From an uncultured Porphyromonadaceae bacterium (GTDB lineage Bacteria; Bacteroidota; Bacteroidia; Bacteroidales; Muribaculaceae), in the NCBI GenBank assembly GCA_947575235.1, contig CANPMT010000006.1, positions 1 to 64,000 of the forward strand: 64,000 nucleotides of DNA, in the 5' to 3' direction. Below the pieces are notes generated by a model. The model made no database searches. It was not told the origin of the DNA and saw only the letters and a list, made by a program, of their open reading frames with translations. This document shows, piece after piece, positions 6,026 through 35,382 of this stretch. The stretch's first letter is position 1. Every line of letters starts with the position of its first letter. Made by a program: the position numbers and the translations under genes.

Positions 6026-6077
6026 AAAAAGACTCATATCCGCATAAAAACGGATAGATAAATGCGAACCCCATTAA

Positions 6078-8371: not shown

Positions 8372-8418
8372 GTATAAGGAAAAGCTGAAACGTATAGAGG
8401 AGTAAAAGGTAATCCGAA

Positions 8419-13157: not shown

Positions 13158-16010
13158 ATGACCCACACCCCGGAAATCAGGTGCGCCAGGCCGCATACAC
13201 GTATACTGCAATTCATATCAATAATTCTGCTCATGCTGCTTACGGCAGTGTCAGCCTCAGGAGAGGGACGGCTTTACCGTCAGGTTCCTTCGTCGGAACA
13301 GACAGCGACAGGGTCGCTGACCGTGTATGACATAACGCGCACCCCCGACGGCTACACCTGGCTCGGCACCGACCGCGGCCTTGTGCGCTATGACGGAGAA
13401 TTCGTCATGAGCGTCAGCGATGCCGAAGGGCGCCCGGGACGATCCCCCATCAAGGCCGTGGCGCCGGTGGGGAGGGGTAATCTGCTTGCCGGAACTCCCA
13501 ACGGAGTGTATCTGCTGAGAAGCAACGGCGGCAGCTATTCGGCCGAACCCCTTTTGGGGGGCCGGAAATTCTCATCCACCTCCGCACTCGCGCTCGATTC
13601 ATGCCGGGCCGTGATAGGGGGCGACGAGGGTATGCTGATATATAACGAACAGAGAGACAGTGTGCGCCATATACGCATAAGCCATGACGCTCTCGATCTC
13701 TCAAACCATATCATAGACATGGCCGCTGCCAACGGCCATGTCTTTGTGCTCACTAAAGAGGGGGTGTTTGACGTGGTGCTCAACGATAAGGGTGAGACAA
13801 TACGCAATCTCGACAAAGATGGCGCCTTGCCCTCTGAATCGCCCACCTCGATAGCGGCGGCCGGAGGGAAAGTATTTGTGGCCGGCACAACGGAAGGGAT
13901 ATTCCGCATCACACTCCCGGACGGGAAGGTAACACCCATACTCCCCGAACTCAGAGGGAGGGTGATGACCTCACTCGCGGTCTCGCCCGACGGCACTACG
14001 CTTTACATCGGCACCGACGGCTCAGGAGTGGTGAAAATGTCGGTGGCCGACGAGGTAGTGACCGGCGAGATCCGTCATTCATCGCTCGACCCGCACGGTC
14101 CGCGCAGCAACCAGGTGTATTCACTCTTCACCGACAGGCGCGGCGAGGTGTGGACGGGCTACTATCAGGGGGGAGCCGACTACACCCCTTCGAAAGAGGG
14201 ACCCTTCACACTTATCGACAATCCCCACACCTTCAACACGCGTGGAGTGGCTGTGAGGGCATTATGCCTCACCGAAGGTTATATCGTGATAGGCACACGC
14301 GAAGGTGTGGTGATATTCGACACCTCTTTGCGCACTGCCCGTCATATCAGGGCTCCCCATCTGCGCTCGGAGATGGTGATATCGCTCCTCAACCATAACG
14401 GGAAGGTACTATTAGGCACCTACGGGGGAGGACTCCATACTCTCGATCCTTCGACTGGCACCATCGGCACACCCGCCTCACTGCGGGGGGAGGATGTCTT
14501 CATCAACGGCAACGTCTTCTCAATCGCGAGCGACGGCAACGGCAATATCTGGGCCGGAACCGACAAAGGGCTATACCGCATAAGCGGAGATGGGAAGACA
14601 GAACGCTTCACCTCATACAACAGCGCGTTGCCCGAGGGGAACGTCTACGGCATATTTTTTGATTCGAAAGGGAAGGGGTGGATATGCGCCGAGAAGGGGC
14701 TTGCTCTCTACGACCCCCGTCAGCAGCGTCTGCGCACCGACCTGTTCCCGGTATCCTTCCCGAAAGATGTGCGCTTCCGCACCGTGTATGAGGACCGGGG
14801 TGGAAGACTCTACTTCGTGCCAGAGAGCGGGCACGTGTTCACCTGCATGCCCGATTTCTCGGATGAACGTATCCTTGACCGGTCATTGCTCGCCGATACA
14901 GAAGCGAAAGGTGTTGTGGAGGACCGCGACGGGAATATCTGGGTGTCGACCAACCGGGGATTGTTCCGTCTTGACAAAGATGGGTCGGTGCTGCGTTTCG
15001 GCACCTCGGCCGGACTCCCATCGGCCGGATTTCTCCAGGGACAGCCGCAGGTGGATGCCAACGGCGATATCTGGTTCGGCAATAGCGAGGGTCTGGTGAA
15101 ACTGGCCCGCGAGGAGATAAAGGATTATCTTACCCCTCCGGCGGTGCCTGTGCCCACCTTGGTGAAGGGTGACGGCAGATTGCTCGAATCGCTCCCCTTC
15201 AGGGAAGAGGGTAGCCGTGAATACACACTCACACTTCCGCAATATTACAACACGGTGAAGCTATGCTTCTCAACCTTCACCTATGCCATAGAAGACCCCG
15301 TTGATTTCGAATACAGCATCGACGGTAACGACTGGGTGCGCTTCAGCGGCGAACTCTGCACGTCGCTCTACGCCCTCTCGCCCGGCAGCCACAGACTGCT
15401 TGTGCGTTCGGCCAAAGACACCGAGGGTGAATCAGGTGTGACCACCGTAGTGATAAAAGTGCCTTATCCATGGCATTGGAGAGTAATCTTCATTCTTGTG
15501 GCTATAGTGGCGGTGCTGACCGGAATCTTCATCTACCGTTATCTGCGTCACCGCCGACAGGCATCGGCTCCCGCAGCTGCCGAGGTGAACCAGGCTCCGC
15601 AGCCCGGGGAGAGTGTGGCCGAAGAGAAGAGGAAATACGTCTCAAATAATCTCTCGCGTACCGAGGCACGTGAGATCAGCCATAAGGTGGATGAGGTCAT
15701 GGCCCGCGAGAAGCCCTATCTCAATTCAGAACTCAAGCTTGTCAACCTTGCGGAGATGGTGGGGGTGTCGTGCCATAAGCTGAGCCAGTTCTTTAGCCAG
15801 CACAAAGGGAAGACTTTCTACGACTACATCAACGGCTACCGCATCGAGGAGTTCAAGCGGATAGTTCGCGAGGAGGGTGGACGCAATTACACCCTCACCG
15901 CCATGGCCGAGAAAGCCGGCTTCTCATCGCGTGCCTCCTTCTTCAGATACTTCAAAAATGTTGAGGGAATCTCGCCCGGCGAGTATCTGAAACGCGAGGG
16001 GAAAGAGTGA
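13158..16010 (+). CDS. membrane-anchored beta-propeller/AraC regulator lacking kinase and receiver
   Basis: 950-aa PUL regulator. Layout: signal anchor (about 14-35), periplasmic Reg_prop beta-propeller repeats (about 40-650; for example GYTWLGTDRGLVRYDG, GNIWAGTDKGLYRIS), Y_Y_Y domain (about 660-768), one transmembrane helix (about 775-797, VIFILVAIVAVLTGIFIY), a short linker, then a C-terminal AraC/XylS helix-turn-helix (about 826-948, ending FKNVEGISPGEYLKREG). A hybrid two-component sensor would have HisKA, HATPase and receiver domains between the membrane helix and the HTH; here about 30 residues separate them. Ligand binding must therefore act directly through the membrane on the DNA-binding domain. 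It lies immediately upstream of an ECF sigma gene. Confidence 0.92.
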   Translation: MTHTPEIRCARPHTRILQFISIILLMLLTAVSASGEGRLYRQVPSSEQTATGSLTVYDITRTPDGYTWLGTDRGLVRYDGEFVMSVSDAEGRPGRSPIKAVAPVGRGNLLAGTPNGVYLLRSNGGSYSAEPLLGGRKFSSTSALALDSCRAVIGGDEGMLIYNEQRDSVRHIRISHDALDLSNHIIDMAAANGHVFVLTKEGVFDVVLNDKGETIRNLDKDGALPSESPTSIAAAGGKVFVAGTTEGIFRITLPDGKVTPILPELRGRVMTSLAVSPDGTTLYIGTDGSGVVKMSVADEVVTGEIRHSSLDPHGPRSNQVYSLFTDRRGEVWTGYYQGGADYTPSKEGPFTLIDNPHTFNTRGVAVRALCLTEGYIVIGTREGVVIFDTSLRTARHIRAPHLRSEMVISLLNHNGKVLLGTYGGGLHTLDPSTGTIGTPASLRGEDVFINGNVFSIASDGNGNIWAGTDKGLYRISGDGKTERFTSYNSALPEGNVYGIFFDSKGKGWICAEKGLALYDPRQQRLRTDLFPVSFPKDVRFRTVYEDRGGRLYFVPESGHVFTCMPDFSDERILDRSLLADTEAKGVVEDRDGNIWVSTNRGLFRLDKDGSVLRFGTSAGLPSAGFLQGQPQVDANGDIWFGNSEGLVKLAREEIKDYLTPPAVPVPTLVKGDGRLLESLPFREEGSREYTLTLPQYYNTVKLCFSTFTYAIEDPVDFEYSIDGNDWVRFSGELCTSLYALSPGSHRLLVRSAKDTEGESGVTTVVIKVPYPWHWRVIFILVAIVAVLTGIFIYRYLRHRRQASAPAAAEVNQAPQPGESVAEEKRKYVSNNLSRTEAREISHKVDEVMAREKPYLNSELKLVNLAEMVGVSCHKLSQFFSQHKGKTFYDYINGYRIEEFKRIVREEGGRNYTLTAMAEKAGFSSRASFFRYFKNVEGISPGEYLKREGKE

Positions 16011-16027
16011 AAATCGGCCACAATCAA

Positions 16028-16066
16028 TCTCAAATAATTGTGAGATACGGGAGTCTCAAATAATTA
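16028..16066 (+). promoter_or_regulatory. direct repeats, possible AraC-regulator operator
   Basis: TCTCAAATAATT occurs at 16028-16039 and again at 16054-16065, a 26-bp period. The first copy also reads as an inverted repeat (TCTCA...TGAGA). The repeats sit 18 bp after the regulator stop codon and about 75 bp upstream of the sigma-factor promoter. Two same-orientation sites are typical of AraC-family binding. That this regulator binds them is inferred. Confidence 0.55.
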
Positions 16067-16140
16067 TACTCTTAATTCCTAATGATTTACAATCAAGATA
16101 TGTCATTAAATTAGCTGACATAATCCCGCCCCCGAAAAAG

Positions 16141-16172
16141 TTGGAGAAGGGCATGGTTTTGGAGTAGTTTTG
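16141..16172 (+). promoter_or_regulatory. housekeeping promoter of the ECF sigma gene
   Basis: TTG (16141-16143), 21 bp, then TAGTTTTG (16165-16172), a good match to the Bacteroidetes primary-sigma promoter TTG...TAnnTTTG. Predicted transcription start is near 16179, giving a leader of about 38 nt before the ATG at 16217. Confidence 0.7.
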
Positions 16173-16173
16173 C

Positions 16174-16197
16174 GTCCGTTAACCAATCTTAACGGAC
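16174..16197 (+). promoter_or_regulatory. perfect inverted repeat at the sigma transcription start
   Basis: GTCCGTTAA (16174-16182) and TTAACGGAC (16189-16197) form a 9-bp perfect inverted repeat with a 6-bp spacer, exactly over the predicted transcription start and leader. It could be a DNA operator or a 5' mRNA hairpin controlling sigma-factor synthesis. Confidence 0.5.
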
Positions 16198-16216
16198 AAA
16201 AACAAATCTAAAGACT

Positions 16217-16726
16217 ATGGCTTTCAATCATCAGAACGACCTCATCTCACGTGTATACACACAGTATCACGCACAGCTTACAGGCTACATCCGCCGTATG
16301 GTAAACGACGCCGACGATGCCGATGACATTGCCCAGGAGGCCTTCATCAACCTCATGGGTTATGGCGAGAAACTTCAGGAGACCACAGTAAAGAGTCTTC
16401 TGTTCAGGATAGCCGGCAACCTGGTAAACGACTACCTGCGTCATCTCTATGTAAAGACAGAGGTGCACACCCAGCTTGGCAAGCAGCGCAGCGAGGAGAG
16501 CGACGACACAGAGAGCGGCATATACGCACGCGACCTCCGTCAGCTTGAGCGCAGGAAGCTCGCGAGCATGCCGGGGCAACGGCGTGTGGTGTACATGCTG
16601 CGCATACATGGTGAGAAGAACACTCAGGAGGTGGCCGATGCGCTCAACATATCGCGCCGCACCGCCGAGAATCATTTTTACTTAGGATTGAAAGAGATGC
16701 GCGAGTATTTCAGAGCCTGCATCTGA
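16217..16726 (+). CDS. ECF-type RNA polymerase sigma-70 factor
   Basis: 169-aa extracytoplasmic-function sigma factor: region 2 at about 9-75 (YIRRMVNDADDADDIAQEAF) and region 4 at about 112-165 with the recognition helix in EVADALNISRRTAENHFYLG. No FecR-like anti-sigma gene is adjacent; the next gene is susC. The upstream gene is the membrane AraC regulator. Control is therefore likely at the level of sigma transcription. Three downstream units carry a common GTAAAM-N13-CGTATWWGAW element that fits an ECF -35/-10 pair, the obvious candidate targets. Confidence 0.93.
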   Translation: MAFNHQNDLISRVYTQYHAQLTGYIRRMVNDADDADDIAQEAFINLMGYGEKLQETTVKSLLFRIAGNLVNDYLRHLYVKTEVHTQLGKQRSEESDDTESGIYARDLRQLERRKLASMPGQRRVVYMLRIHGEKNTQEVADALNISRRTAENHFYLGLKEMREYFRACI

Positions 16727-16801
16727 GAAGCGTGCCTCCGATTATAAAGAGTAAAAGTGGGTATCGCTAAAAAAAATTAAAAAACTCGATTGGAAGAATG
16801 A

Positions 16802-16830
16802 GTAAACGGAGAGATATGTCCGTATAAGAT
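16802..16830 (+). promoter_or_regulatory. ECF-type promoter upstream of susC
   Basis: GTAAAC (16802-16807), 13 bp, CGTATAAGAT (16821-16830), preceded by an A-rich tract and TCGATTGG. The same elements and the same 13-bp spacer precede the genes at 22425 and 26556. It lies 57 bp before the susC ATG and follows the sigma-factor gene. Confidence 0.7.
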
Positions 16831-16887
16831 TACAAAACCGAACTATCGACAAACAACTAACAGAAACAGAATATAAACCAGACTATC

Positions 16888-19800
16888 ATGAAACCAACTT
16901 CAAAACGGCGGCATATGGCACGGCTGACAGCCCTGGTGTTGCTTGGCGGAGGTGTCTTCGGACTCACACCTGCCACAATGCATGCGGCACCCGCGGCGGC
17001 AGCGGCCACGTTGAGCACCGTCTCCGGAACAGTAACCGATGAACAGGGCGAGGCTCTGATAGGCGCCACCATCCTGGTGAAGGGTACAAGCAACGGAACA
17101 TCTACCGACATCGACGGCAACTTCACCCTGAAGAATGTCACAGGGAACACACTCGTGGTGTCATACGTAGGCTACCAGACAAAAGAGGTGGCTGTGGCGC
17201 CTAACCTTAAGATTGTGCTGGCAGAGGAATCATCAGTGCTCGACGAGCTCGTGGTGGTAGGCTATGGTGTGCAGAAGAAAGGTTCACTCACAGGCGCCGT
17301 GTCATCGGTAGGTGAGGCGGCCTTCGCCGACAAAGGAGCCACTACCAACCCCTTGGCCGACCTTCAGGGTCAGATTCCGGGTATGCTCGTGACACGCGGC
17401 TCATCGGCTCCCGGCCGTGAGGGATGGGATTTCAAAATCCGTGGCGAGGCCTCGGTCAACAATACCTCGGCACTTGTGATCATTGACGGTGTGCCCGGCA
17501 ACATGAACGACCTCAATCCCGAGGATATAGAGAATGTGTCAGTGCTCAAGGATGCGTCGGCTGCAATATACGGTGCGCGTGCGGCCGGTGGTGTCGTGCT
17601 CGTTACTACAAAACGCGGCAGCCGCAACGGCAAGAAACCTACCGTGACATACAGCGGCAACGTCACCTGGAAAGTGTCAGACCCGCAGGTGCAGTGGATG
17701 ACCCTCCAGCAGTGGGCCACATGTATCGAGGAGACTCTCTACAACGAGGGTATCTCAAGCGGTACACTCAGCACCTTCACCCCCGTCGGTGCCATGCCTT
17801 ACGCGGCCATCTACGCCATGAAGACACGCGACCCGCAGTTCATGGGCACCGTGCAGAGCTATGCGGCTCTCGGCGGTAACGCCGACGCCATCAGCGACAT
17901 CGGTTTCATCGACTCAGACCAGTATAGCGACACCTTCGGCAACGCCTTCTCACATTCACACTCGATAGGTGTGAACGGTGGCAACGACTTCATGCGCTAC
18001 AACGTGAGCTTAGGCTACATGTATGACGGTTCGCCGCTTCAGTTCGGCATAAAGGAGAACGGACGCCGCTTCAACGCACGCGCCAACAACGACTTCACCA
18101 TAGCCAAATGGTTTGACCTCTCCACCACAATAGCCTTCGCACGCCGCGACAACACCTACCCCTACTACAATCCCTCAGGTGTGAACGGCAACCCTCCCGG
18201 CTCACCGATCTTCTCATCAGACGGTCAGCACGCCTTCGGATGGCTCAACAACTATTCAGACGTGGCAGTGGCCAAATTAGGTGGCAACAAGCGCAGCATC
18301 TACAACGAGACAACGGTGAACGTGCGACCCACATTCCACATCATCAAGGGACTTGACCTTATCGGAACCGTAGGCTACACAATCAAGGACTGGGTGAACA
18401 AGGAGACAGAGTACAAGAACTACATGTACACCTGGGACAACGAGAAGATCGAGACCATGATGCGTCCCACCGACAACCGTTTCCTCCGCAAGAACCAGGC
18501 CAATCTCTACCAGCTCTATCAGGGCTACCTGAACTATATGACCGACTTCGGCACGAGCGACGACCATAACCTCACCGTAATGGCAGGTATAAGCTACGAG
18601 CGCGAGGACCAGGAGTCGACACAGACCAAGCTTCTCAATCTCTCTGACGGCTATCTCCACTCCCTCTCATCGTCATACAATCCCGAGACGACGAAGGTGG
18701 AATTCTCAGACGACAAGTGGACAACCGCCCTCGCCTCATACTTCGGACGTATCAACTACGACTACCAGGGACGTTACCTCATCGAGCTCCTCGGCCGTTA
18801 CGACGGTTCGTCGAAATTCGTGAGAGGTAAGAAATGGAAAGGTTTCTTCGGTGTGTCGGGCGGCTGGCGCATCAGCGGTGAGAAATTCATGCACGACATC
18901 TCATGGCTCACCGACCTGAAGCTCAGGGCCTCATATGGCGAGACCGGTAACCAGAGTGGCATCGGCACCTACGACTTCGTGGGTAACGTGGCCACAAGCG
19001 TCAACGGCTCCAACACAACAGGTGCCGGTCTGTTCGGCCCCACCGGTTCAGCGGCTCCCGGTCTGACTCTCTGGCAGAGCAACGTGATCAGCCTTGACCG
19101 CACATGGGAGACTGTGAAGAACACCAACGTAGGTGTTGACTTCGCCTTCCTGAGCGGACGTCTGAGCGGTTCGTTCGAGTATTTCTGGAAGACCAACGAC
19201 AACATGCTCGTTGGCGTGACATATCCCGCCATATTCGGAGCGTCAGCCCCCAGCACCAACAGCGGCAAACTCACCGTAAACGGATGGGAGCTCCAGCTCA
19301 ACTGGCGTGACCGCGTAGGGGAACTCTTCTACAACGTAGGCTTCAACATCTCGGATGCCAAGAACAAACTCGTGTCAATGCCAAACACAGAGGGTTACGA
19401 CCAGAATAAGATAACCAAATACAGAGAGGGCTACGAGCTCAACTCAATGTTCGGCCTTGAGTTTGTTAAACTCATCGAGAACCAGCAGGAGCTCGACAGC
19501 TACCGCGCAATGATAGACGCGGCCGACGGACAGGCACTCGGAGTTGACACCTCACTCTTGGGTATAGGCGACGCCATGTATGCCGACCTCGACGGCGACG
19601 GCAATATCGACTATGACGATATCAAGCTTCTCGGCTCGAACAATCCCCGCTACTCATTCTCGCTCAATCTCGGCGGCGAATGGAAAGGTTTTGACCTCAA
19701 CATGATCTTCCAGGGTGTAGGTAAGAACCAGCTCATCCGCGACGTGACATCGCTCACATCACCCGGCCGCAACATCTATCAGATACAGGGTGGCCAGTGG

Positions 19801-20274
19801 TATGACAAGACCTGGGGATACAATCCCGGCCAGGATGACCGCATGGTAGGCCAGACAATCGACTACTATCAGGTAGGCGCCGACGGCACACTCGTACCCA
19901 CCACAGTCACCACCAGCGCGTCAGACTACCGCACGGGCTACAACGACCCCTACAACGCGGTGCCCCGCTGGAACCGCAGCATGGCCGCCTACAACTACCT
20001 CTACAGCGATGCCTGGTATCGTCTGCAGAACATGGCCTACTGCCGTCTGAAGAACCTCACCGTAGGTTACACCCTCCCCACCACGCTGACCTCAAAGATC
20101 GGCATAGAGAAGGTAAGACTGTACTTCACCGGCACCGACCTCTTCACAATCAAGTTCAACAAAGACAAGACCGACCCTGAGAACAACAGCACCAACCCCC
20201 TCGGAGGTTCATCCGGCGCGAGTGCATATCCCTTCTACCGTTCATACACAATCGGTCTTAACCTAACCTTCTAA
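16888..20274 (+). CDS. SusC/RagA-family TonB-linked outer-membrane transporter
   Basis: 1128-aa outer-membrane glycan importer that works with the SusD lipoprotein downstream. After a signal peptide (about 1-38) come a carboxypeptidase-regulatory-like domain (about 45-105, VSGTVTDEQGEALIGATI), the SusC signature SSVLDELVVVGYGVQKKGS with the TonB-box region (about 113-132), a plug (about 135-235) and a long barrel ending in LNLTF with a terminal Phe. There is no N-terminal STN (secretin/TonB short) domain, so it should not signal to an anti-sigma factor. Length is normal for the family. It begins the susC-susD transcript. Confidence 0.96.
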   Translation: MKPTSKRRHMARLTALVLLGGGVFGLTPATMHAAPAAAAATLSTVSGTVTDEQGEALIGATILVKGTSNGTSTDIDGNFTLKNVTGNTLVVSYVGYQTKEVAVAPNLKIVLAEESSVLDELVVVGYGVQKKGSLTGAVSSVGEAAFADKGATTNPLADLQGQIPGMLVTRGSSAPGREGWDFKIRGEASVNNTSALVIIDGVPGNMNDLNPEDIENVSVLKDASAAIYGARAAGGVVLVTTKRGSRNGKKPTVTYSGNVTWKVSDPQVQWMTLQQWATCIEETLYNEGISSGTLSTFTPVGAMPYAAIYAMKTRDPQFMGTVQSYAALGGNADAISDIGFIDSDQYSDTFGNAFSHSHSIGVNGGNDFMRYNVSLGYMYDGSPLQFGIKENGRRFNARANNDFTIAKWFDLSTTIAFARRDNTYPYYNPSGVNGNPPGSPIFSSDGQHAFGWLNNYSDVAVAKLGGNKRSIYNETTVNVRPTFHIIKGLDLIGTVGYTIKDWVNKETEYKNYMYTWDNEKIETMMRPTDNRFLRKNQANLYQLYQGYLNYMTDFGTSDDHNLTVMAGISYEREDQESTQTKLLNLSDGYLHSLSSSYNPETTKVEFSDDKWTTALASYFGRINYDYQGRYLIELLGRYDGSSKFVRGKKWKGFFGVSGGWRISGEKFMHDISWLTDLKLRASYGETGNQSGIGTYDFVGNVATSVNGSNTTGAGLFGPTGSAAPGLTLWQSNVISLDRTWETVKNTNVGVDFAFLSGRLSGSFEYFWKTNDNMLVGVTYPAIFGASAPSTNSGKLTVNGWELQLNWRDRVGELFYNVGFNISDAKNKLVSMPNTEGYDQNKITKYREGYELNSMFGLEFVKLIENQQELDSYRAMIDAADGQALGVDTSLLGIGDAMYADLDGDGNIDYDDIKLLGSNNPRYSFSLNLGGEWKGFDLNMIFQGVGKNQLIRDVTSLTSPGRNIYQIQGGQWYDKTWGYNPGQDDRMVGQTIDYYQVGADGTLVPTTVTTSASDYRTGYNDPYNAVPRWNRSMAAYNYLYSDAWYRLQNMAYCRLKNLTVGYTLPTTLTSKIGIEKVRLYFTGTDLFTIKFNKDKTDPENNSTNPLGGSSGASAYPFYRSYTIGLNLTF

Positions 20275-20289
20275 TCTCTCCGCACAGAT

Positions 20290-22233
20290 ATGAAAACAAC
20301 AAGAATTCTGGCAATGGCTGCAATGGGAGCCATGATGTTGGCATCATGCGACGATTCGCTCGATTTCTATCCGGAAATCACCACCAACGAATCGAACACG
20401 ATGGACAAGATAGAATATTATGAGGCTGAGGTCAACAACTGGTACAGCTGGTTGCCGAAGCTCATGGACAACGGCAAGATCCAGGGTCTGGCAGCCCGCG
20501 ACGGCGACAGCGACTTCGGCGTGGGTATGTCGGGAGCCATCTCCGCATCGAAGATGAGCCAGCCCGAGAAGAACGACCGTTACAACGTCTACTACGAGCA
20601 TGTACGCTCGATCAACTATCTGGAGTATTACGCTTCCAACTATTACAAAGGTGATCAGGCCGACCTCGATGTGTATCGTGCGCAGGCCCGTTTCTTCAGG
20701 GCTTACGAAAGCTGGCTCTTCTTCCGCGACTTCGGTCCCGGCACAATAGTGAGAGGTGTGCTCGATCCCACTTCGCCCGAAGTCATGGCCGACCGAAACA
20801 CCCGCGACGAATTTGTGGATTTCATGATCGAGGACCTCAAATGGGCCATCGCGTCAGGGTGTCTTCCCAAAGAGTCAGATATCCGCAACACAGCTAATGA
20901 GGGACATGTGACAGTCGGTGCCGCCAACGCCTTGTTGGGTAGAATCTGTCTCTTCGAGGGTACATGGCAGAAGTATCACACCGAGATGGATGAGTATCCC
21001 GAGGCCAATCATCCCACGACATCAGGCTCACGCGCCGAGCGCAGCCGTTATCTCCTCGAGATCGGCAAGGAAGCCCTTGAGAATGTGATAGCCGACAACA
21101 GTTACGAGCTTTTCCGCAACGAGGCACTCGGCGACGCTTCATATAAATATATGTTCATCCTCGAGAGCAGCGTGGCCCGCAATCCGGCAGGAGTGCTCAA
21201 GAGCGCAAACAAGGAGTATATCTTCGCCAACCGTTTCGACAACTCCACCAAGCTTGCCGCCCAGAACTGGGTGCATACCTACCGTTCAAGCGGTATGGCA
21301 CGTCACCTCGTGGAGAGCTTCGGCACCAAAGATGGCTCACCCCGCTCGACCGACTACTCGAATCCCCGCTACTGGTGTCATGAGAACATGGACCCCCGTA
21401 TCTCCGAGTTGGGTGTGAACTTCATGGGCTACATGTGGACCTACAGTTCAAAGCGCGACAACTACGATGAGATCGGCACACCCACCGTAAACTCGACCAT
21501 CTCCTTCCTGCCCGGCGTGAGCAAGTGGAGCGTGGAGACAACCTGCGGTGCCAACGACGCCTCGTATGACATTCCGGTGATCCGCCTCGGAGGTGTATAT
21601 CTCGACTATGCCGAGACACTCTGCGAGCTCAACGGTGGCGCACCGATTGCCGTGAGCGAGAATGCCCACATCAATCTTCTCCGCAAGCGTGTGAGCATGC
21701 CCGTGAAGAGCAGCTGGACACTCGACGAGATCCGCAACGAACGTGCCTGCGAGCTCTATTTCGAGGGCTATCGTGTGGATGACGTGCGCAGATGGGCGAA
21801 GGGTGATGAACTCTTCGGAGTTGACCTCGAAGGCCTCTATATCGGCAAGACCGAAGCAGAGCGCAAGAATGTGTTCATCGCCAATCCCTGCTACACCGTG
21901 CAGGTGAAGAGCCTCACACAGGATATCCTCGACACCTACCGCTGGATGCAGCTTGAGAAAGACGGGAAGACCCTGTTCGTATTCTGCGACCCCAACAATC
22001 CGCCGACCTACGACCAGGCTGCCGCCAAGAAAGGCCCCGACGGGAAGACCCTCTTCGTCGCAGGCGACCCCACCAAGACCCTCACCAACGGCGTGAAGAT
22101 CAGCGACGACGGTTACTATCTCATCGAGGAGAAGGAGAGCCGCAAATTCGAGAAACGCACATATATGCTCCCGATTCCTGTGGACCAGATGGTGCTCAAT
22201 CCCAACCTCACTCAGAATCCCTACTGGAATTAA
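20290..22233 (+). CDS. SusD/RagB-family glycan-binding lipoprotein
   Basis: 647-aa surface lipoprotein (lipobox LASCDD, Cys20) that caps the SusC barrel and binds oligosaccharide. TPR-like helices typical of SusD are visible (YRAQARFFRAYESWLFFRDF; GAANALLGRICLFEG), as is the C-terminal signature IRNERACELYFEGYRVDDVRRW followed by PIPVDQMVLNPNLTQNPYW. The gene is 15 bp after susC. Oddity: a local duplication near the C-terminus, where DGKTLFV...DP appears twice, 26 codons apart (21961 and 22039), making this protein longer than usual in that loop. Confidence 0.96.
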   Translation: MKTTRILAMAAMGAMMLASCDDSLDFYPEITTNESNTMDKIEYYEAEVNNWYSWLPKLMDNGKIQGLAARDGDSDFGVGMSGAISASKMSQPEKNDRYNVYYEHVRSINYLEYYASNYYKGDQADLDVYRAQARFFRAYESWLFFRDFGPGTIVRGVLDPTSPEVMADRNTRDEFVDFMIEDLKWAIASGCLPKESDIRNTANEGHVTVGAANALLGRICLFEGTWQKYHTEMDEYPEANHPTTSGSRAERSRYLLEIGKEALENVIADNSYELFRNEALGDASYKYMFILESSVARNPAGVLKSANKEYIFANRFDNSTKLAAQNWVHTYRSSGMARHLVESFGTKDGSPRSTDYSNPRYWCHENMDPRISELGVNFMGYMWTYSSKRDNYDEIGTPTVNSTISFLPGVSKWSVETTCGANDASYDIPVIRLGGVYLDYAETLCELNGGAPIAVSENAHINLLRKRVSMPVKSSWTLDEIRNERACELYFEGYRVDDVRRWAKGDELFGVDLEGLYIGKTEAERKNVFIANPCYTVQVKSLTQDILDTYRWMQLEKDGKTLFVFCDPNNPPTYDQAAAKKGPDGKTLFVAGDPTKTLTNGVKISDDGYYLIEEKESRKFEKRTYMLPIPVDQMVLNPNLTQNPYWN

Positions 22234-22301
22234 TGAGTTCTGATAATCAGTGAGTTGGAGATAAAATAAAAATTTTTCAAAAAAAATCGCGTATCGATTA
22301 G

Positions 22302-22330
22302 GTAAACAGAAACCTTCACGCGTATTAGAA
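22302..22330 (+). promoter_or_regulatory. ECF-type promoter upstream of the 22425 gene
   Basis: GTAAAC (22302-22307), 13 bp, CGTATTAGAA (22321-22330), preceded by A-rich DNA and TCGATTAG, matching the element before susC in sequence and spacing. The right end overlaps the left arm of the inverted repeat at 22328-22386. Predicted start is near 22337. Confidence 0.7.
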
Positions 22331-22386
22331 TGTGAAAAAGGGACGCCACCCAAACCTTTCCGGCAACGGCGACCTTTTTCACATTC
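22328..22386 (+). promoter_or_regulatory. long inverted repeat in the susD-22425 spacer
   Basis: GAATGTGAAAAAGG (22328-22341) and CCTTTTTCACATTC (22373-22386) are perfect 14-bp complements. After an A/A mismatch the pairing resumes with CGCC/GGCG, leaving a loop of about 21 nt. The left arm overlaps the ECF-type -10 element. In mRNA reading through from susD it would form a stable hairpin; in mRNA starting at the local promoter only part of the left arm would be present. No U-tract follows, so it is not a standard terminator. Confidence 0.7.
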
Positions 22387-22424
22387 ATCATTTTAACCAA
22401 AATAACAATCAATACCAAAGTATT

Positions 22425-23459
22425 ATGAAAAGATTTACTACAGTGGCTCTCGCCACAATGGCACTTGCCACAGCAGCAACAGCACAGGTACGCTGGAACC
22501 CCGAGAATTCATGGGCAACCGATAACGGCGCTACAATCCTCCAGGTAGGTGAGGACGGAAAATCGGCCGTGAACAAACTTGTGCGTCAGGACAACGGCAA
22601 CTGGCGTGCCGACATCCGCTACGCAGCCACAGCAAACCTCACAGAGGCTGAGCCCTATTTCGTGGCTCAGATCACAACCGACGGTTGCGCATGGAACCTC
22701 AACGACTTCAAGTTTGAGTTCATGCTCCAGCGCAAGGTTTCAGAGGGTCTCAATGAGGATGGCTCAGTAAAATGGAGCGGCAACACCGACTCTTTCCATG
22801 AGGAATACCCCTCATTCGTAGGCGACAAGTTCAAGGTTGTCGACCAGTATGAGGCCGACCTCTATCAGCTTCTCGGCTCAAGCGTGATGAACGGCGAGGA
22901 TGAGGTGTACACAGAGGATGTTATTGTGATCGACCTCAACAAGGTGAAAGCCACTGACGAGGATAAGACCCAGGGCCTTCTCTTCAGCGCGGGCGACGTT
23001 CACTTCCCCAACCTCAATGCCTTCCAGACAATCGTTGAGCCTGATGCCGAGGGTATGGGCGGTGTGCAGCAGCGTTCATGGATGGGCTTCGTATGTATCG
23101 CCCCCGGTGCCACTGTGACAGTTGACCAGCCTACATTCACCATCCACTACACCGGTACTGTAGAGGATTCGAGCGACGCCCTTACCGTATGCGAGGACTA
23201 CTACAACGGCGACGGTGGCAAGGAGGTACGTGAAGGTGATGTAGAGAGCGTGGAGGGTGTTGTAAGCGACAGCTTCAACGTATACCTGAAGAATGGCCGC
23301 ACAGTCGTAGCCCTCGGTGCTGAGAAGACAGAGGCTTACACAACCGATGGCCGTCTTGTAGCCCAGGGTGGCGAGACACTCGAACTTCCCGCCGGTCTCT
23401 ACCTGGTTAAGGCCACCAAGAACGGTGTTGTGAAGACTGTGAAAGCTATGGCAAGATAA
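22425..23459 (+). CDS. exported PUL protein with C-terminal sorting-like module
   Basis: 344-aa exported protein in the position where susE/susF-like glycan-binding genes usually sit. A signal peptidase I type leader (MKRFTTVALATMALATAATA) precedes a beta-rich domain of unknown family (about 22-270) with many aromatic residues. The tail (about 285-344: GRTVVALGAEKTEAYTTDGR, then LPAGLYLVKATKNG) resembles the short immunoglobulin-like C-terminal modules found on many Bacteroidales exported proteins and on type IX cargo. There is no lipobox, so it is not a classical SusE. Function, possibly glycan binding, is inferred from position only. It has its own ECF-type promoter and ends at a strong terminator. 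Confidence 0.7.
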   Translation: MKRFTTVALATMALATAATAQVRWNPENSWATDNGATILQVGEDGKSAVNKLVRQDNGNWRADIRYAATANLTEAEPYFVAQITTDGCAWNLNDFKFEFMLQRKVSEGLNEDGSVKWSGNTDSFHEEYPSFVGDKFKVVDQYEADLYQLLGSSVMNGEDEVYTEDVIVIDLNKVKATDEDKTQGLLFSAGDVHFPNLNAFQTIVEPDAEGMGGVQQRSWMGFVCIAPGATVTVDQPTFTIHYTGTVEDSSDALTVCEDYYNGDGGKEVREGDVESVEGVVSDSFNVYLKNGRTVVALGAEKTEAYTTDGRLVAQGGETLELPAGLYLVKATKNGVVKTVKAMAR

Positions 23460-23498
23460 TAAGAAGACGTCATAGAAGTCATAACATAACCTGCAACC

Positions 23499-23533
23499 GG
23501 AGGGCGTGTCGGTCAGCCGACGCGCCCTCCTTT
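23499..23533 (+). terminator. Rho-independent terminator/attenuator
   Basis: A 14-bp stem (23499-23512 with 23517-23530; one G-U pair) with a TCAG loop, followed by TTT. It lies between the 22425 gene and the lyase at 23565. No separate promoter is evident before the lyase, so partial read-through may set a lower lyase level. Confidence 0.75.
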
Positions 23534-23564
23534 GCATAAGTATCATCCAGATATCACCCCTGAC

Positions 23565-26363
23565 ATGAAACAGAAAATCCTGGCCATACTTTCCGGCATA
23601 ATGCTGACGACGGCAGGTGTGGCGGCACGTACATTCGTGCATCCCGGCTGTTCCTACACGCAAGGGCAGCTTGACCGTATGAAAGCCATGGTGGAGGCTA
23701 AGGTGGAACCTTACTACACTACCTTCCAGAATCTGAAGAACTCGGAGCACGCCCAGCTCGACCGTAAGGTTGTAGACCGTGGCACGCAGATACGCGAGGG
23801 TCAGTTCAATGGCACGGTAGGTATTGACGGCCGTTGCGCCCACGACCTTGCCCTGCTCTGGAAACTCACAGGCGACACCCGCTATGCCGACAAGGCTGTG
23901 GAGTATCTCAACGCCAACAACCATTACACCAACACATCCGCACGCGGCACAGGACCGCTCGACAACGGCAAGATCAACCTGCTGATAGAGGCGGCCGAGC
24001 TGATGCGCGATTATGAGGGGTGGGATGCGGAAGAGCAGCAGAAATTCAAGGATATGCTCACCTATCCCTACTATTCATCGACCGAGGATGTGGCAGCCAA
24101 ATATGCCGACTGGTATAACGACGACAACAACGGCATAACTTTCTACTGGAACATAATGAACGGCGATGCCGGACGCCATGGCAACCAGGGTATGTTCGGA
24201 ATGTTGGGTATGCTGGCCATGGGTGTATATCTCGACAACGAGGTAATCTACGACCGCGCTCTCCGCTATGTGTCGGGTCTTCCTCACCGTGCTGACGACC
24301 TTCCGTATGTTGCCGGTCCACCGATTACGAGCAGCAAGCCCACCCAGACAGGTGAGTTCATGAACACCTACAACCTTGACGGACGCAAGAATGAAATCGA
24401 GGATTACGGCTATGACGAGCTTCTGCAGTATTATTTCTATCCCAACGGGCAGTGTCAGGAATCATCGCGTGACCAGGGTCATGTGCTGGCGGGTCTGCAC
24501 AAGTATATCGAGTTTGCCGAGATAGCCTGGAACCAGGGAGACCGTTTCTATTCACTCCACGACAACCGTCTGCTGAAAGGTATAGAGTTCAACTACCGTT
24601 ACAACCTCTCATTCTTCCAGAGCTATCCCGACCAGCCCGAACCGTGGGAGCCGGCAGGTTACACCACCGACTGGGATGAGGTGACTCTTGAGAACAATCT
24701 CTATCTCCAGACACGCACCCGCAGCGGACGCTGGGAATCGATAAAGCCGAGTCCCGACGGACGAGGGGGTATCAGCAACGTGGGTTCCCGCACATCGGCA
24801 TATGCCCATTATCTGGTAAGGGCCGGTGAGCCGGAGGAGAACACACTCTGGCTGCGCCGCACACATGAATACACCCTCGACAAATATGGCTACGAGACTT
24901 CAGGCACCGGCCCGAGCTGGTATTACGAATGGAATGGCTGGGGAACCCTTACCAAGAGTCTTGAGACCTGGATGGCCGGTGACCCGGTACGATTTGTCGA
25001 CGGCGAGCGCGTGTCGGGAATACACACGGTGCCCGGTGAGATTTCAGCAGCCGATTACGATTACTATAATATAAGCGAGGATGGCGAGGGGCATACCTAT
25101 CACAAGGTGAATGCAGCGTCAGCCACGGCCTACCGTCCCGACGGCGGAGTGGCTCTGTCGCTCAGTGGCGACCGCTGGGTGGTAAGTTCAACCGCAGCCG
25201 GTGAATGGCTTAACTATACGGTGGGTGTGCCTGTGGCCGATACGTATGACGTGTTCGTGACTTACAGAAGCAAGGGTGAGTCACAGGTCGGCGCAGCCGT
25301 GTCAGGTGGTGAGAAGGCGGTGGCTACCCTCGCAGCGTCGGAAGAGTTCAGAGAGGAGCTCATAGGCACTCTGGAGATGCCCGCCGGAGCAGCCGTGGTG
25401 CGACTCTATATGGAGAATCCCGGTGAAGAGCTGGAGATAGCATCAATCAGGGTAGCCTACAATTCCTCTGAGGAGAGAAGGGTTGACTTTGAGGGTTATC
25501 TCGATTCAAGAGCCAAGGAGTTTGTGGCCGACTGGGCATTCAGCGGAATGCTGGTGTCAGATATCAATCTGATGCGCTGTGAGGCCGGAGCTCCCGAGAC
25601 CGCCGAGGTGGTATCGGCCGACAATACATTCGGCCACTATGTCGACGGGGGTATCGAGGGCACAGTGCCTGCTTACACCTATTGGCTGACATACATGACC
25701 GATGGAGAGGAGTGCGAGAGCGAGCGTATCACCATAGAATGGGGTGAGCTCGACGACAGATTCGATTCGGAGGAGGTGTCAGACTGGAACATACCCTCAG
25801 GTAACGGAAGCGGGGAATACAGGGATGGTGTGTTTGCCGTGACCCCCAACGCATCCGGCGCATCACGCGTCAGCCGCAAATGGTCGTTCCCCTTCCATGC
25901 CGGTAACTTCCCGATTCTCGCATTCTGTATGGAGCGTCCCGAGGGTTTGACGATGGGTCTGTACTCAGGGGCGAATTCATGGAACAACGGTTACGACACC
26001 TTCACAGGTAAGATAGGGGAGAACGTCTATTATTACGACCTGACCTCCGGATCTTTCCAGAACAGCAAAGGTGTAAGTAAACTGGAATTTTCAGTAGAGG
26101 AGACGAGCAGTGTACCGTTGCAGCTGCGCACCACCGGACCGGCCGATGCGTCGGCGCTGGAGCTGAAATGGGTAAGGACCTTCCGCAATATGGAGGAGCT
26201 CAAGGCCGCCGCCGAAGATTCAGGAGTTGATGAGGTGGTTGCGCCCGGTGATAGCCATGGACGTATCTACAACATGACCGGCATGGACTGCGGCACTGAC
26301 ATCGACCGTCTCCCCGAAGGTATATATGTGATCGACGGGAAGAAAGTCCTCATCAGAAGATAA
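23565..26363 (+). CDS. alginate-lyase-fold polysaccharide lyase with CBM-like module
   Basis: 932-aa exported enzyme. The signal peptide ends near GVAARTF. An alpha/alpha-toroid alginate lyase domain (about 25-420) includes the family signature RDQGHVLAGLHKY and a conserved NGDAGRHGNQG segment. A CBM6-like beta-sandwich (about 500-620) contains AAGEWLNYTVGVPVADTYDVFV-type text. Further beta-rich domains follow, then a short C-terminal module ending LPEGIYVIDGKKVLIRR, like the tail of the 22425 protein. The ATG at 23565 gives a proper signal peptide. Members cleave uronate polymers (alginate, glucuronan); the PL family is not certain. Works with heparinase-like PL and GH88. Confidence 0.85.
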   Translation: MKQKILAILSGIMLTTAGVAARTFVHPGCSYTQGQLDRMKAMVEAKVEPYYTTFQNLKNSEHAQLDRKVVDRGTQIREGQFNGTVGIDGRCAHDLALLWKLTGDTRYADKAVEYLNANNHYTNTSARGTGPLDNGKINLLIEAAELMRDYEGWDAEEQQKFKDMLTYPYYSSTEDVAAKYADWYNDDNNGITFYWNIMNGDAGRHGNQGMFGMLGMLAMGVYLDNEVIYDRALRYVSGLPHRADDLPYVAGPPITSSKPTQTGEFMNTYNLDGRKNEIEDYGYDELLQYYFYPNGQCQESSRDQGHVLAGLHKYIEFAEIAWNQGDRFYSLHDNRLLKGIEFNYRYNLSFFQSYPDQPEPWEPAGYTTDWDEVTLENNLYLQTRTRSGRWESIKPSPDGRGGISNVGSRTSAYAHYLVRAGEPEENTLWLRRTHEYTLDKYGYETSGTGPSWYYEWNGWGTLTKSLETWMAGDPVRFVDGERVSGIHTVPGEISAADYDYYNISEDGEGHTYHKVNAASATAYRPDGGVALSLSGDRWVVSSTAAGEWLNYTVGVPVADTYDVFVTYRSKGESQVGAAVSGGEKAVATLAASEEFREELIGTLEMPAGAAVVRLYMENPGEELEIASIRVAYNSSEERRVDFEGYLDSRAKEFVADWAFSGMLVSDINLMRCEAGAPETAEVVSADNTFGHYVDGGIEGTVPAYTYWLTYMTDGEECESERITIEWGELDDRFDSEEVSDWNIPSGNGSGEYRDGVFAVTPNASGASRVSRKWSFPFHAGNFPILAFCMERPEGLTMGLYSGANSWNNGYDTFTGKIGENVYYYDLTSGSFQNSKGVSKLEFSVEETSSVPLQLRTTGPADASALELKWVRTFRNMEELKAAAEDSGVDEVVAPGDSHGRIYNMTGMDCGTDIDRLPEGIYVIDGKKVLIRR

Positions 26364-26393
26364 TATATTTTGAAAAAATTGCGAGGGGATTAG

Positions 26394-26422
26394 GTAAAAG
26401 GGAGACGTGATTCGTATTTGAA
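26394..26422 (+). promoter_or_regulatory. ECF-type promoter upstream of the GH43 operon
   Basis: GTAAAA (26394-26399), 13 bp, CGTATTTGAA (26413-26422), preceded by an A-run and GGATTAG. This is the third element of the set found before susC and the 22425 gene. It implies a leader of about 125 nt before the ATG at 26556. Confidence 0.65.
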
Positions 26423-26477
26423 GATGGTTAGACAATTTTAAGGCAATAAAGATTGTTTATTTCTTAAAAAGAATGAG

Positions 26478-26524
26478 GACTCTAAATCTTTGGGAACTCT
26501 AAATCTCAGGAGGACTCTAAATCT
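26478..26524 (+). repeat. three direct repeats in the GH43 leader
   Basis: The 12-mer RACTCTAAATCT occurs at 26478-26489, 26495-26506 and 26513-26524 (periods 17 and 18 bp), between the ECF-type promoter and the GH43 start. It may be slippage, a protein-binding array or an RNA element. Confidence 0.7.
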
Positions 26525-26555
26525 TAAAATCAAACTTTAAAACGACATCGCGAAT

Positions 26556-28181
26556 ATGAGAATTAGGTTGTTACACTTGATTATGTGTGCATCGGCAGCT
26601 GTGACAGCGGCCGATGCACAGTACGTTTCAGACCCCGGTAATCTCAAGGGGACGAGTTATACAAATCCCGTGATACATGCCGACTATTCCGACCCGGATG
26701 TGGTGGCGTCGCCCGACGGTAAGACGTTCTATATGACCGCATCAAGTTTCCAGTGTGTGCCGGGATTGCCGATATTGAAATCGACCGATCTCGTAAACTG
26801 GAGCATTGTCAACTATGCACTTCCGGCAGTGCCTCCCGCAGATTATTATGATGCCGCTCCGCGTCATGGAAAGGGTGTGTGGGCGCCTTGCATACGCTAT
26901 CATGCCGGTGAGTATTACATATATTGGGGAGATCCCGATTTCGGTATCTTCATGATTAAGACAGCCGATCCCGAAGGGGAGTGGTCGGAACCCGTATTGG
27001 TGAAGGAGGGTAAGGGTCTGATTGACCCGTCGCCTCTCTGGGACGAGGATGGGAAGGCTTATCTCGCGAATGGATGGGCCGCCTCCAGAGCCGGTTTCAA
27101 CAGTGTGATAACCATCAGCGAGATGACCCCAGACGGCACAAAAGTGATATCATCGCCCAAGATTGTCTTTGACGGCAATGACGGAGTGAACCATACGGTT
27201 GAGGGCCCGAAGTTCTACAAACGCGACGGATGGTATTATCTCTTCGCCCCTGCCGGAGGCGTCGTGGATGGGTGGCAGATAGCCATGCGGTCGAAAGATG
27301 TCTATGGCCCTTACGAATGCCGTATTGTCATGGCGCAGGGTGAATCCGACATAAACGGTCCACATCAGGGAGCCTGGGTGACGACCGGCAATAACGAGGA
27401 CTGGTTTCTGCATTTCCAGGACAAAGGGGCATATGGACGCATCATCCACCTCAATCCTCTTGAATGGCGCGACAACTGGCCCGTGATCGGCAATGATAGG
27501 GATGGCGACGGCTGCGGCGATGCCGTGAGGAGATGGCGCAAGCCCTCCGGACTTCTCAACGAGGTGAGCACCGACCGTGGTGTGGAGGGGCTCTACCAGT
27601 GGCACGGGAATTACCATGACATCTTCGGATTCGATATTCCGGATGGTGTGAAGCGTATCTACGGCCATAAAGTGTCGGAAGAGTTCGTGAATATGTGGGA
27701 GGTGCCCAATCTATGGCTAAAGAAATTTCCCGATGAGGAATTCAGCATGACCGCCAAGGTCAAGGTGTCGGCCAAATCAACCTCCGAGGGTGTGTCCTCC
27801 GGACTGATTGTGATGGGCTGGGACTATGCGAGACTCGGTGTGGATAAATCTGGCGACGGTTTCGTGGTGACGTTCACCACCTGCAAGGATGCCGAGACCG
27901 GCGGTAAGGAGACTACCCGCGAGATAGCCCGTCTGCAGCCGACGCGCACCTATGCGGCGGGTCTGTATCCCAATCTTGAGGAGGAGATATGGTTTCGTCT
28001 TCAAGTCGCGAAGGGTGGCGAGTGCAAGCTGCAATACAGCACCGACGGGAAGAGATATGAGACAGCCGGAACGTTCACGGCGCGGGCCGGAAAATGGATC
28101 GGGGCGAAAGCCGGATTTTACAGCATAACACCGGCCTCGGTGAGCGAGCGTGGCTGGATTGATATATTGGAGACAGAATAA
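26556..28181 (+). CDS. GH43 glycosidase with C-terminal beta-sandwich
   Basis: 541-aa exported GH43 enzyme (beta-xylosidase/alpha-L-arabinofuranosidase type). The signal peptide ends near ADAQ. The five-bladed propeller (about 34-330) has the three family acids: D46 in YSDPDV (general base), D157 in LIDPSP (pKa modulator) and E216 in HTVEGPKF (general acid). A concanavalin-like C-terminal domain (about 370-541) follows, as in the larger GH43 subfamilies. It likely trims pentose side chains or xylan-like backbones. First gene of a four-gene unit with DUF4861, an esterase and a second GH43. Confidence 0.93.
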   Translation: MRIRLLHLIMCASAAVTAADAQYVSDPGNLKGTSYTNPVIHADYSDPDVVASPDGKTFYMTASSFQCVPGLPILKSTDLVNWSIVNYALPAVPPADYYDAAPRHGKGVWAPCIRYHAGEYYIYWGDPDFGIFMIKTADPEGEWSEPVLVKEGKGLIDPSPLWDEDGKAYLANGWAASRAGFNSVITISEMTPDGTKVISSPKIVFDGNDGVNHTVEGPKFYKRDGWYYLFAPAGGVVDGWQIAMRSKDVYGPYECRIVMAQGESDINGPHQGAWVTTGNNEDWFLHFQDKGAYGRIIHLNPLEWRDNWPVIGNDRDGDGCGDAVRRWRKPSGLLNEVSTDRGVEGLYQWHGNYHDIFGFDIPDGVKRIYGHKVSEEFVNMWEVPNLWLKKFPDEEFSMTAKVKVSAKSTSEGVSSGLIVMGWDYARLGVDKSGDGFVVTFTTCKDAETGGKETTREIARLQPTRTYAAGLYPNLEEEIWFRLQVAKGGECKLQYSTDGKRYETAGTFTARAGKWIGAKAGFYSITPASVSERGWIDILETE

Positions 28182-28184
28182 AAA

Positions 28185-29351
28185 ATGATGAAAATAGAGA
28201 GAGGTATGATAATCATGGCGGTTGCCATGATGTGCGGATGCGCCCGCCAGGAGGTGCGTCTTACGGTAAGCAATGCCGGTGTTGAGGAATCATGGCAGCC
28301 ATTGGCCGAGTTCAGTGCCGACTCAGTGCTTGACCTAATAGGGAGTCCTTATTGCTACGTCACCGACAGCAAGGGGGAGGAGGTGCCCGTTCAGATTACC
28401 TATGACCGTAAGCTGATATTTCCGGTGACGCTGCAGCCCGGCGAGAGCGGGGTTTATGATGTGCATCCCTGCGATACGCTCCGCACATATCCGGCTCTTG
28501 TGTCGGGTCGTGCCTATCCGGAGCGTGCCGACGATTTCGCGTGGGAGAACCAGGTGAACGGTTACCGTGCCTACGGACCCGCCACACAGGCCAAGGGTGA
28601 GAAGGCGTTCGGTTACGACATCTTCTTCAAACACAAGACTGACAGGAATGTTCTGGAGGATATCTATCGTCCGGAGACCGACCCCGCAACATGGCGCAAG
28701 GTGGATTCGTTGCGCAATATCTCGCCTGATTTGGCTGAGGAATTCATAGCGTCATTCTCCTATCATATCGACCATGGGTTAGGGATGGACTGCTATGCGG
28801 TGGGTCCTACTTTGGGAGCGGGTGTGGCCGCTCTTATGGATGGTGACAGCATAGTGTATCCATGGTGTTACGACAAGGTGGAGGTGCTCGATGAGGGGCC
28901 GTTGCGTTTCACCGCACGTCTTGACTTCGCACCTGTAAGGATAGGAGGGGACAGTGCGGTTGTGGAGCACCGTCTTATCTCGCTTGATGCCGGTTCGTAT
29001 CTCAATGACTGCAGGGTGTGGTATGACGGCCTATCGGGGAGCCGGAAGATTGTGGCAGGCGTACCGCGCCGCGACGAGAGTGAGGCTATTATAGACAGCG
29101 CAGCGGGTATCATAGCATATGCCGACCCCACTCAGGGACCCGATAACGGGAAAGCCATGTTGGGGGTGATAGTGGCTAATCCGGTTGAGGATATCGTTGA
29201 GCGCGATGGTCATATTCTGGCTGTGACGACGATAGAGCCGGGCGACACCCTGAGCTATCGCTGGGGCTTTGCCTGGGACCGCGAGGATATCGGCACGATG
29301 ACCCGCTGGAAAGACTATCTCGGCAGTGTGAAATTCGGCAGTGTGAAATGA
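28185..29351 (+). CDS. DUF4861-family lipoprotein
   Basis: 388-aa lipoprotein (MAVAMMCGCARQ, lipobox Cys). It matches the DUF4861 family, beta-sandwich-rich proteins common in PULs for uronate polysaccharides, with conserved text such as ENQVNGYRAYGPA and FGYDIFFKHK. The biochemical role is not settled; a lyase or glycosidase accessory role is often assumed. It begins 3 bp after the GH43 stop and overlaps the next gene by ATGA. The last codons contain a 15-bp tandem duplication (GSVKFGSVK) that also creates the overlap junction. Confidence 0.8.
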   Translation: MMKIERGMIIMAVAMMCGCARQEVRLTVSNAGVEESWQPLAEFSADSVLDLIGSPYCYVTDSKGEEVPVQITYDRKLIFPVTLQPGESGVYDVHPCDTLRTYPALVSGRAYPERADDFAWENQVNGYRAYGPATQAKGEKAFGYDIFFKHKTDRNVLEDIYRPETDPATWRKVDSLRNISPDLAEEFIASFSYHIDHGLGMDCYAVGPTLGAGVAALMDGDSIVYPWCYDKVEVLDEGPLRFTARLDFAPVRIGGDSAVVEHRLISLDAGSYLNDCRVWYDGLSGSRKIVAGVPRRDESEAIIDSAAGIIAYADPTQGPDNGKAMLGVIVANPVEDIVERDGHILAVTTIEPGDTLSYRWGFAWDREDIGTMTRWKDYLGSVKFGSVK

Positions 29352-35381: not shown

Positions 35382-35382
35382 A

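Follow-up and report, generated by a model that had tools for sequence, protein, structure and literature searches.

A predicted relay from a kinase-less AraC-type sensor to an anti-sigma-free ECF sigma factor in a polysaccharide utilization locus

A polysaccharide utilization locus (PUL) encoded within 64,000 nucleotides of DNA from an uncultured Porphyromonadaceae bacterium (assembly GCA_947575235.1, contig CANPMT010000006.1, positions 1 to 64,000; hereafter, the window) raises a question about its control. A membrane-bound AraC-type regulator is encoded directly in front of an extracytoplasmic function (ECF) sigma factor, and no anti-sigma gene neighbours the latter; which of these two proteins, and in which order, directs the transcription of the transporter and enzyme genes that follow? 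The literature, which is drawn upon here in excerpts, describes the control of PULs as SusR-like, by hybrid two-component systems (HTCS) or by ECF/anti-sigma pairs (PMC3878776, PMC13088901), or as exerted by the last two of these (PMC10766802, PMC11501099, PMC3243724). A sequence-only reading of the window had suggested a cascade in which the AraC-type protein turns on the sigma factor, which then acts on three operons. Comparisons across the window, its genome of origin (3.32 Mb, about 90% complete) and related genomes support this cascade through a candidate operator and a -7 box at the sigma gene, and through boxes of fixed geometry in relatives. We regard it as highly probable that the locus operates as a two-tier relay, in which a kinase-less propeller-AraC sensor would drive the synthesis of an anti-sigma-free ECF sigma factor, which would in turn drive the operons of the cluster.

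The regulator-sigma pair and the predicted ECF boxes

The regulator (13158..16010, + strand) is a protein of 950 amino acids with Pfam matches to Reg_prop and HTH_18, the latter comprising the AraC-type DNA-binding domain (residues 864-946; 15747..15995, + strand). Its hydropathy profile shows an N-terminal membrane segment (residues 16-34) and an internal one (about 774-796), and the protein thus reads as a signal or transmembrane segment, a propeller, a second transmembrane segment and a helix-turn-helix (HTH) domain. The propeller, membrane and AraC-type parts of the architecture originally proposed are hence upheld, while the Y_Y_Y domain, which had been named as well, yields no Pfam match in the window protein; it is detected in 10 of 15 scanned regulators of the family. 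All of these 15 proteins possess Reg_prop and HTH_18, and neither they nor 10 further regulators have Pfam matches to HisKA, HATPase_c or Response_reg.

The adjoining sigma factor (16217..16726, + strand; 169 amino acids) consists of sigma-70 regions 2 and 4 only (Sigma70_r2, PF04542; Sigma70_r4_2, PF08281), and scores 115.1 bits against TIGR02985 (Sig70_bacteroi1), below the curated cut-off of 126.4. Its orphan status, as well as the lack of an STN domain in the neighbouring SusC protein, had been claimed from the sequence alone, and both claims hold: FecR and FecR_C are absent from the 18 scanned window proteins (all between 720 and 38022), and STN is found in none of 20 SusC proteins, that of the window included (a set that left out those of L063, split into two open reading frames (ORFs), and L066).

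The pair itself recurs, as a comparison of gene order in related genomes, advocated in the sequence-only reading, made apparent. Sigma matches with E values of 1e-25 or better are present in 20 of 397 genomes of the family, its own included. Among the 19 relatives, the regulator lies directly 5' of the sigma gene in 14 (it is split into two ORFs in L062 and cut by the contig end in L065), one gene intervenes in L070, and a contig edge prevents a judgement for L061. Of a further 393 genomes drawn from the order, 12 have a match; the 10 that belong to other families carry 12 sigma matches in all, and for seven of these 12, from five families, the regulator lies directly upstream (in L158 with a small ORF on the opposite strand between). 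One gene separates the two in L165, a contig edge intervenes in L162, and no regulator stands beside the sigma gene in L166 and L167. Kinase and receiver domains are absent, as judged by Pfam, from the regulators of all seven direct pairs and from that of L165. The regulator of L163 (15535-19671), directly 5' of an ECF sigma gene of the same type, is a full HTCS protein with HisKA, HATPase_c and Response_reg, and this locus is a kinase-bearing version of the same predicted relay. In two extra records from uncultured Bacteroides sp., one gene lies between regulator and sigma gene (L021), or no regulator is found in the stretch covered (L020).

What the sigma factor might recognize is indicated by GTAAAM-N13-CGTATWWGAW, of which the sequence-only reading had reported three copies. 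It does occur three times exactly in the window, and not once in 100 shuffles. The corresponding ECF promoter boxes, predicted from motif scans and box alignment, lie 5' of susC (16796..16830), 5' of gene 22425 (22296..22330) and 5' of a GH43 gene (26388..26422), all on the + strand, and share the register RATTRRGTAAAC-N13-CGTATW. Genome-wide, the strict motif finds only these three sites, so that all matches fall in this locus (reversed control, 0), and the looser GTAAM-N14-CGTATWNGR again finds the same three (reversed control, 1). Among the 396 other genomes of the family, 12 have a single copy of the strict motif, and by our count the reversed control gives 12 as well; the background thus amounts to about 0.03 per genome. 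The GATTRG-like motif that had been noted before each site stands for two of them: GATTAG immediately precedes GTAAA at sites 2 and 3, while the in-register letters at site 1 are GAATGA, and its GATTGG (16788) sits 8 nt too far upstream, out of register. Eighteen boxes from the window and its relatives, picked as good examples so that their alignment illustrates the pattern rather than testing it, align without gaps, with 6 of 39 columns invariant (G7, T8, C26, G27, A29, T30).

A relaxed box with a spacing of 16 gave 19 matches in 461 kb from 22 loci, 10 of which have a match, and 14 of the 19 lie just 5' of genes (a count that includes window site 8368-8396, which is not listed as a part of the relay); eight other spacings gave a single match in total. 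This pattern was in part shaped on those same 22 loci, which lessens what the count says in favour of the relay, and the scan was therefore repeated on 17 later stretches. There it found eight matches, two of them repeats and six new, with five of the new ones 5' of genes; the eight other spacings gave four matches, two of them 5' of genes. One new box, in L158 from another family, precedes a GH43 relative, and L070 has three similar boxes. Since none of the 19 relaxed boxes lies 5' of a sigma gene (the matches in L059 and L069 fall inside its coding sequence), autoregulation of the sigma factor is not proposed. A loose single pattern found five matches in the window's genome: two coincide with known boxes (of three), one is an additional window site and two lie elsewhere. 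The reversed control gave three; the pattern is hence informative within loci and not genome-wide.

Genome G204 has the same locus, with a sigma factor 50% identical to that of the window and with boxes 5' of susC and 3' of susD, plus one before another gene; its contig ends soon after the susD box, and both matching places are covered. In G243, the susC, susD, 22425-like and lyase genes are 70-79% identical to those of the window and the sigma factor 39%, and the boxes have changed in both elements, to GTAATC-N13-CGAATAT; a pattern covering them matches the genome at two places, each within the locus (reversed control, 1). The lyase-like ORF, if read at its greatest length, includes part of the second box, which would require a later start for that gene. 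As judged by these comparisons, boxes and sigma factor have both diverged in G243, and it is because of their co-location and joint change that we infer recognition of the boxes by the window sigma factor.

The predicted operator in front of the sigma gene

The upper tier of the relay is suggested by a feature that the sequence-only reading had overlooked, a perfect 12-bp direct repeat at 16028 and 16054, 5' of the sigma gene. From its conservation, this TCTCAAATAATT-N14-TCTCAAATAATT element (16028..16065, + strand) is predicted to be the operator of the regulator. It lies 137 bp 5' of TAGTTTTG (16165..16172, + strand), which fits TAnnTTTG, a sequence that we take to be the -7 element of Bacteroidetes primary-sigma promoters. 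Such a box was found by script 134-138 bp 3' of the operator in 16 of 17 loci (approximate dinucleotide shuffles: mean 0.059, most 2), and by eye at 140 bp in the seventeenth, where the stretch was too short for the script.

The exact operator occurs three times in the 397 genomes of the family (G000, G204, G024), each time between an AraC-type regulator and a sigma gene. Three further matches have two mismatches, and those in G314 and G228 occupy the regulator-sigma position, that in G372 does not. With up to three mismatches, the pattern occurs once in the window and 32 times in the 397 genomes (reversed control, 10; our count). Gene context covered 14 of these 32, namely the six that differ at 0-2 positions and eight that differ at three; the match in G190 was placed by position, and the other 17 all have three mismatches. 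None of the eight context-checked three-mismatch matches sits in a regulator-sigma module.

In a search whose tightened filters forgo weak matches, a sequence-only model, R1, built from the aligned operator sites of 17 loci, gives 20 genomes one strong match each (E <= 3.7e-6); 17 of these matches are the training sites. Two of the three others lie between regulator and sigma gene (G228, already known from the pattern search, and G380), and the third, in G219, beside a regulator. Among nine weaker matches (E 0.001 to 0.007), the one in G059 stands by a sigma gene and is on the opposite strand; no regulator or sigma gene was found by BLAST at the other eight, one of which has a weak SusC match. 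Across the 23 sequence sources searched, strong R1 matches in the loci lie only at sigma promoters.

The spacing class of the operator follows the HTH domain of the regulator: HTH identity averages 60.5% within and 50.9% between operator spacing classes (17 proteins; 0 of 2000 permutations, relatedness uncorrected). The regulator of G243 is an outlier, with an HTH domain only 31-43% identical to the others, and a different direct repeat, GTTTCAAGTTTT, occurs twice 5' of the sigma gene of its locus (L060), 75 bp apart, with the first copy 136 bp before the -7 box. Across the aligned loci, the predicted operator and promoter of the sigma gene are conserved.

The proposed relay, its rivals and its place among known systems

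In the relay that we envision, the membrane regulator would sense a periplasmic glycan fragment via its propeller domain and, without kinase or receiver, would activate transcription through its cytoplasmic AraC-type domain. It would bind the direct repeat at 16028-16065 and activate the housekeeping-type promoter of the sigma gene. The sigma factor, next to which no anti-sigma gene lies, would be controlled via its synthesis, and its complex with RNA polymerase would initiate transcription at the boxes before susC, gene 22425 and GH43. Some basal expression of susC is probably contributed by transcripts that continue from the sigma gene.

A number of results weigh against this relay. In the majority of relatives no box separates the sigma gene from susC; the relaxed pattern is unmatched in 12 of the 22 loci over the stretch covered (for L021 and L060, other patterns do reveal boxes), its sole match falls inside the sigma gene in two of the 10 matching loci, and new matches appeared in five of the 15 non-overlapping later stretches. 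No such regulator stands beside the sigma gene in three of the 19 relatives in the family (L057, L058, L072), and in G219 the operator stands after a regulator, with neither a sigma gene nor a -7 box found 3' of it. The permutation test on HTH identity ignores shared ancestry. The repeat spacing of 24-26 bp, rather than the average of 21 bp given for HTCS sites in the excerpted source (PMC3878776), would place the half-sites off a common helix face. Outside the family, R1 gives only partial and weak matches, several of them wrongly oriented.

The most serious rival reading is a mixed wiring, in which transcription started by the regulator continues past the sigma gene into susCD; the AraC-type protein would then control the transporter for the most part directly, and the sigma factor would do no more than recruit further operons. 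The gap between sigma gene and susC measures about 40-160 bp in many relatives, with no box seen between; the boxes of L065, L067 and L070 precede later genes instead, and no terminator is predicted between the two genes in the window. Read-through from sigma gene to susC is likely at least in relatives in which the two lie close, and since the genes look co-transcribed in many relatives, SusC may be under direct control of the regulator too. We nevertheless consider this wiring rather unlikely, given the box between sigma gene and susC in both the window and G204; the terminator scan, moreover, used a simple consensus that found fewer sites than in shuffles, and neither it nor the sigma-70 promoter scan gave more than shuffles do. 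A feed-forward loop, with the AraC-type protein acting on the sigma promoter and on the target promoters alike, would have a precedent in P. gingivalis, where PorX binds the promoter of sigP as well as that of porT (PMC8265659, in excerpt). It is very doubtful here, in view of the single strong R1 site in each of 20 genomes, which within the loci is confined to the sigma promoter, and of the single occurrence of the operator pattern in the window.

Ordinary ECF/anti-sigma control with an anti-sigma factor encoded elsewhere in the genome would fit the incomplete assembly, and such proteins exist here: FecR_C ORFs adjoin three of eight other sigma-like genes examined in this genome (L004 and L005 just below the cut-off, L008 above it). 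For this reason, the statement that the genome lacks FecR (0 matches to PF04773) was rejected as misleading, FecR_C being represented by PF16344. However, each of the three FecR_C ORFs neighbours another sigma gene, no FecR is found among the scanned window proteins, the extra gene 3' of the sigma gene in L072 encodes a DUF4959 lipoprotein, and the scanned SusC proteins lack STN; we hold this reading to be improbable. The FecR_C proteins of L004, L005 and L008 are short and lack the PF04773 match expected of FecR. That the boxes are accidental, or are those of a different sigma factor, strikes us as extremely improbable. Other ECF-like sigma factors are present, with 16 TIGR02985 matches in the genome (the two weakest partial), but all three genome-wide matches of the strict motif lie in this locus, and the matching box places in G204 and the joint divergence in G243 speak against such an origin.

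The proposed relay joins an HTCS-type sensor to an ECF/anti-sigma-type output, minus the anti-sigma factor. Like the HTCS of Bacteroides PULs, it has a periplasmic propeller sensor, an inner-membrane anchor, an AraC-type domain, direct-repeat sites and control of a neighbouring PUL (PMC3878776, PMC3243724); it differs in the lack of histidine kinase and receiver, in the wider repeat spacing mentioned above, and in a predicted site at the sigma gene rather than at susC. With the ECF/FecR systems of PULs it shares a Bacteroidetes-type ECF sigma factor beside susC and susD, but here there is no FecR neighbour, the SusC protein is STN-free, and a dedicated regulator and predicted operator are found 5' of the sigma gene. 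SusR is likewise a membrane-anchored PUL regulator with direct-repeat sites, but acts on the PUL genes themselves, with sites spaced 67 or 77 bp (PMC3878776). As to protein family, the DNA-binding domain of SusR is not known to be of the kind present in the window regulator.

Outside PULs, the PorXY-SigP pathway of Porphyromonas gingivalis is comparable as a Bacteroidota sensor pathway through which an ECF sigma gene is transcriptionally activated; it is a two-component system with scattered genes, serves a secretion system rather than a PUL, has PorX also binding target promoters, and has been re-read as a feed-forward loop (PMC8265659, PMC4800418). HrpL, Streptomyces SigE and ECF114 SigH, among others, also lack an anti-sigma factor and are made only when an upstream regulator acts; they involve other regulators and ECF groups, and the excerpted part of the source, whose ECF114 table entry includes SigH of P. 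gingivalis, names no PUL system (PMC8999054). Excerpts from studies on Bacteroides describe a distant ECF sigma factor of B. thetaiotaomicron that acts on part of a PUL (PMC12596196), and an HTCS of one PUL of B. xylanisolvens whose control, direct or indirect, extends to genes of another PUL, one that carries an ECF/anti-sigma pair (PMC4855328). No AraC-to-ECF relay in a PUL was found among the matches listed or in the excerpts, which came mainly from the open literature, with subscription papers and bioRxiv preprints largely outside. Such a relay in a PUL seems to be undescribed, while ECF sigma factors under transcriptional control are already known elsewhere.

We think it probable that this arrangement is a fourth mode of PUL control beside SusR, HTCS and ECF/anti-sigma systems, and that it occurs in no fewer than six families of one order. 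It would have an operator of its own, in the home family, together with a distinct ECF promoter consensus, and would convey one sensor input to several operons via a dedicated holoenzyme. The relay predicts a signal-amplifying switch and would account for separate operons that share one glycan input. The box sequence would provide one ECF group of the Bacteroidota with a promoter consensus; in the excerpted view from 2013, the prediction of ECF-controlled promoters was a challenge that required transcription-start data (PMC3878776). Together, consensus and operator make the prediction of the regulon directly testable.

Gene content and smaller features of the locus

Downstream of the sigma gene, all on the + strand, lie genes for an STN-free SusC-like transporter (16888..20274; TIGR04056, 803 bits), a SusD-like lipoprotein (20290..22233; PF07980, PF14322), a secreted protein of no recognised family (22425..23459; no Pfam matches, signal peptide read by eye) of which G243 encodes a 73% identical counterpart, and an alginate-lyase-like protein with DUF4979 (23532..26363; domain search). 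These are followed by one of two GH43 proteins (26556..28181; domain search) and, as the next gene of its unit, by a DUF4861 protein (28185..29351; PF16153; NF058564 at 304 bits, below the cut-off of 320). Genes 5' of the regulator encode an OPT transporter and heparinase II/III-like, GH97, GH88 and GH28-like proteins, the last just below the cut-off. This enzyme set suggests an acidic plant or algal glycan as the substrate of the cluster.

A stem-loop is predicted by folding just 3' of box 2 in three genomes (window, 22328..22386; L055, about 19605-19655; L060, about 7955-8000). The three stems are unrelated in sequence, with raw folding energies of -27 to -29 kcal/mol, and the expected sigma-dependent start would fall in or near the 5' arm. 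Such a structure may end the susCD transcript yet spare transcripts from box 2.

Further box candidates were rejected. A fourth window site at 8368-8396, 5' of the GH97 gene 8419, is at chance level, as the loose pattern has two matches elsewhere and three in the reversed control; its second half is shared with a match on contig C11. A two-mismatch match at 6022-6050 is also at chance level. De novo counting of two-box words per locus returned mainly AT-rich words, though it pointed to the boxes of L070.

An adjoining pair of genes with GmrSD restriction-type domains occupies positions 33984-38022 of the window. Finally, the leader of the GH43 unit (26475-26525) contains three copies of the 16-nt repeat GAGGACTCTAAATCTT, 17-18 bp apart, one copy being 81% identical.

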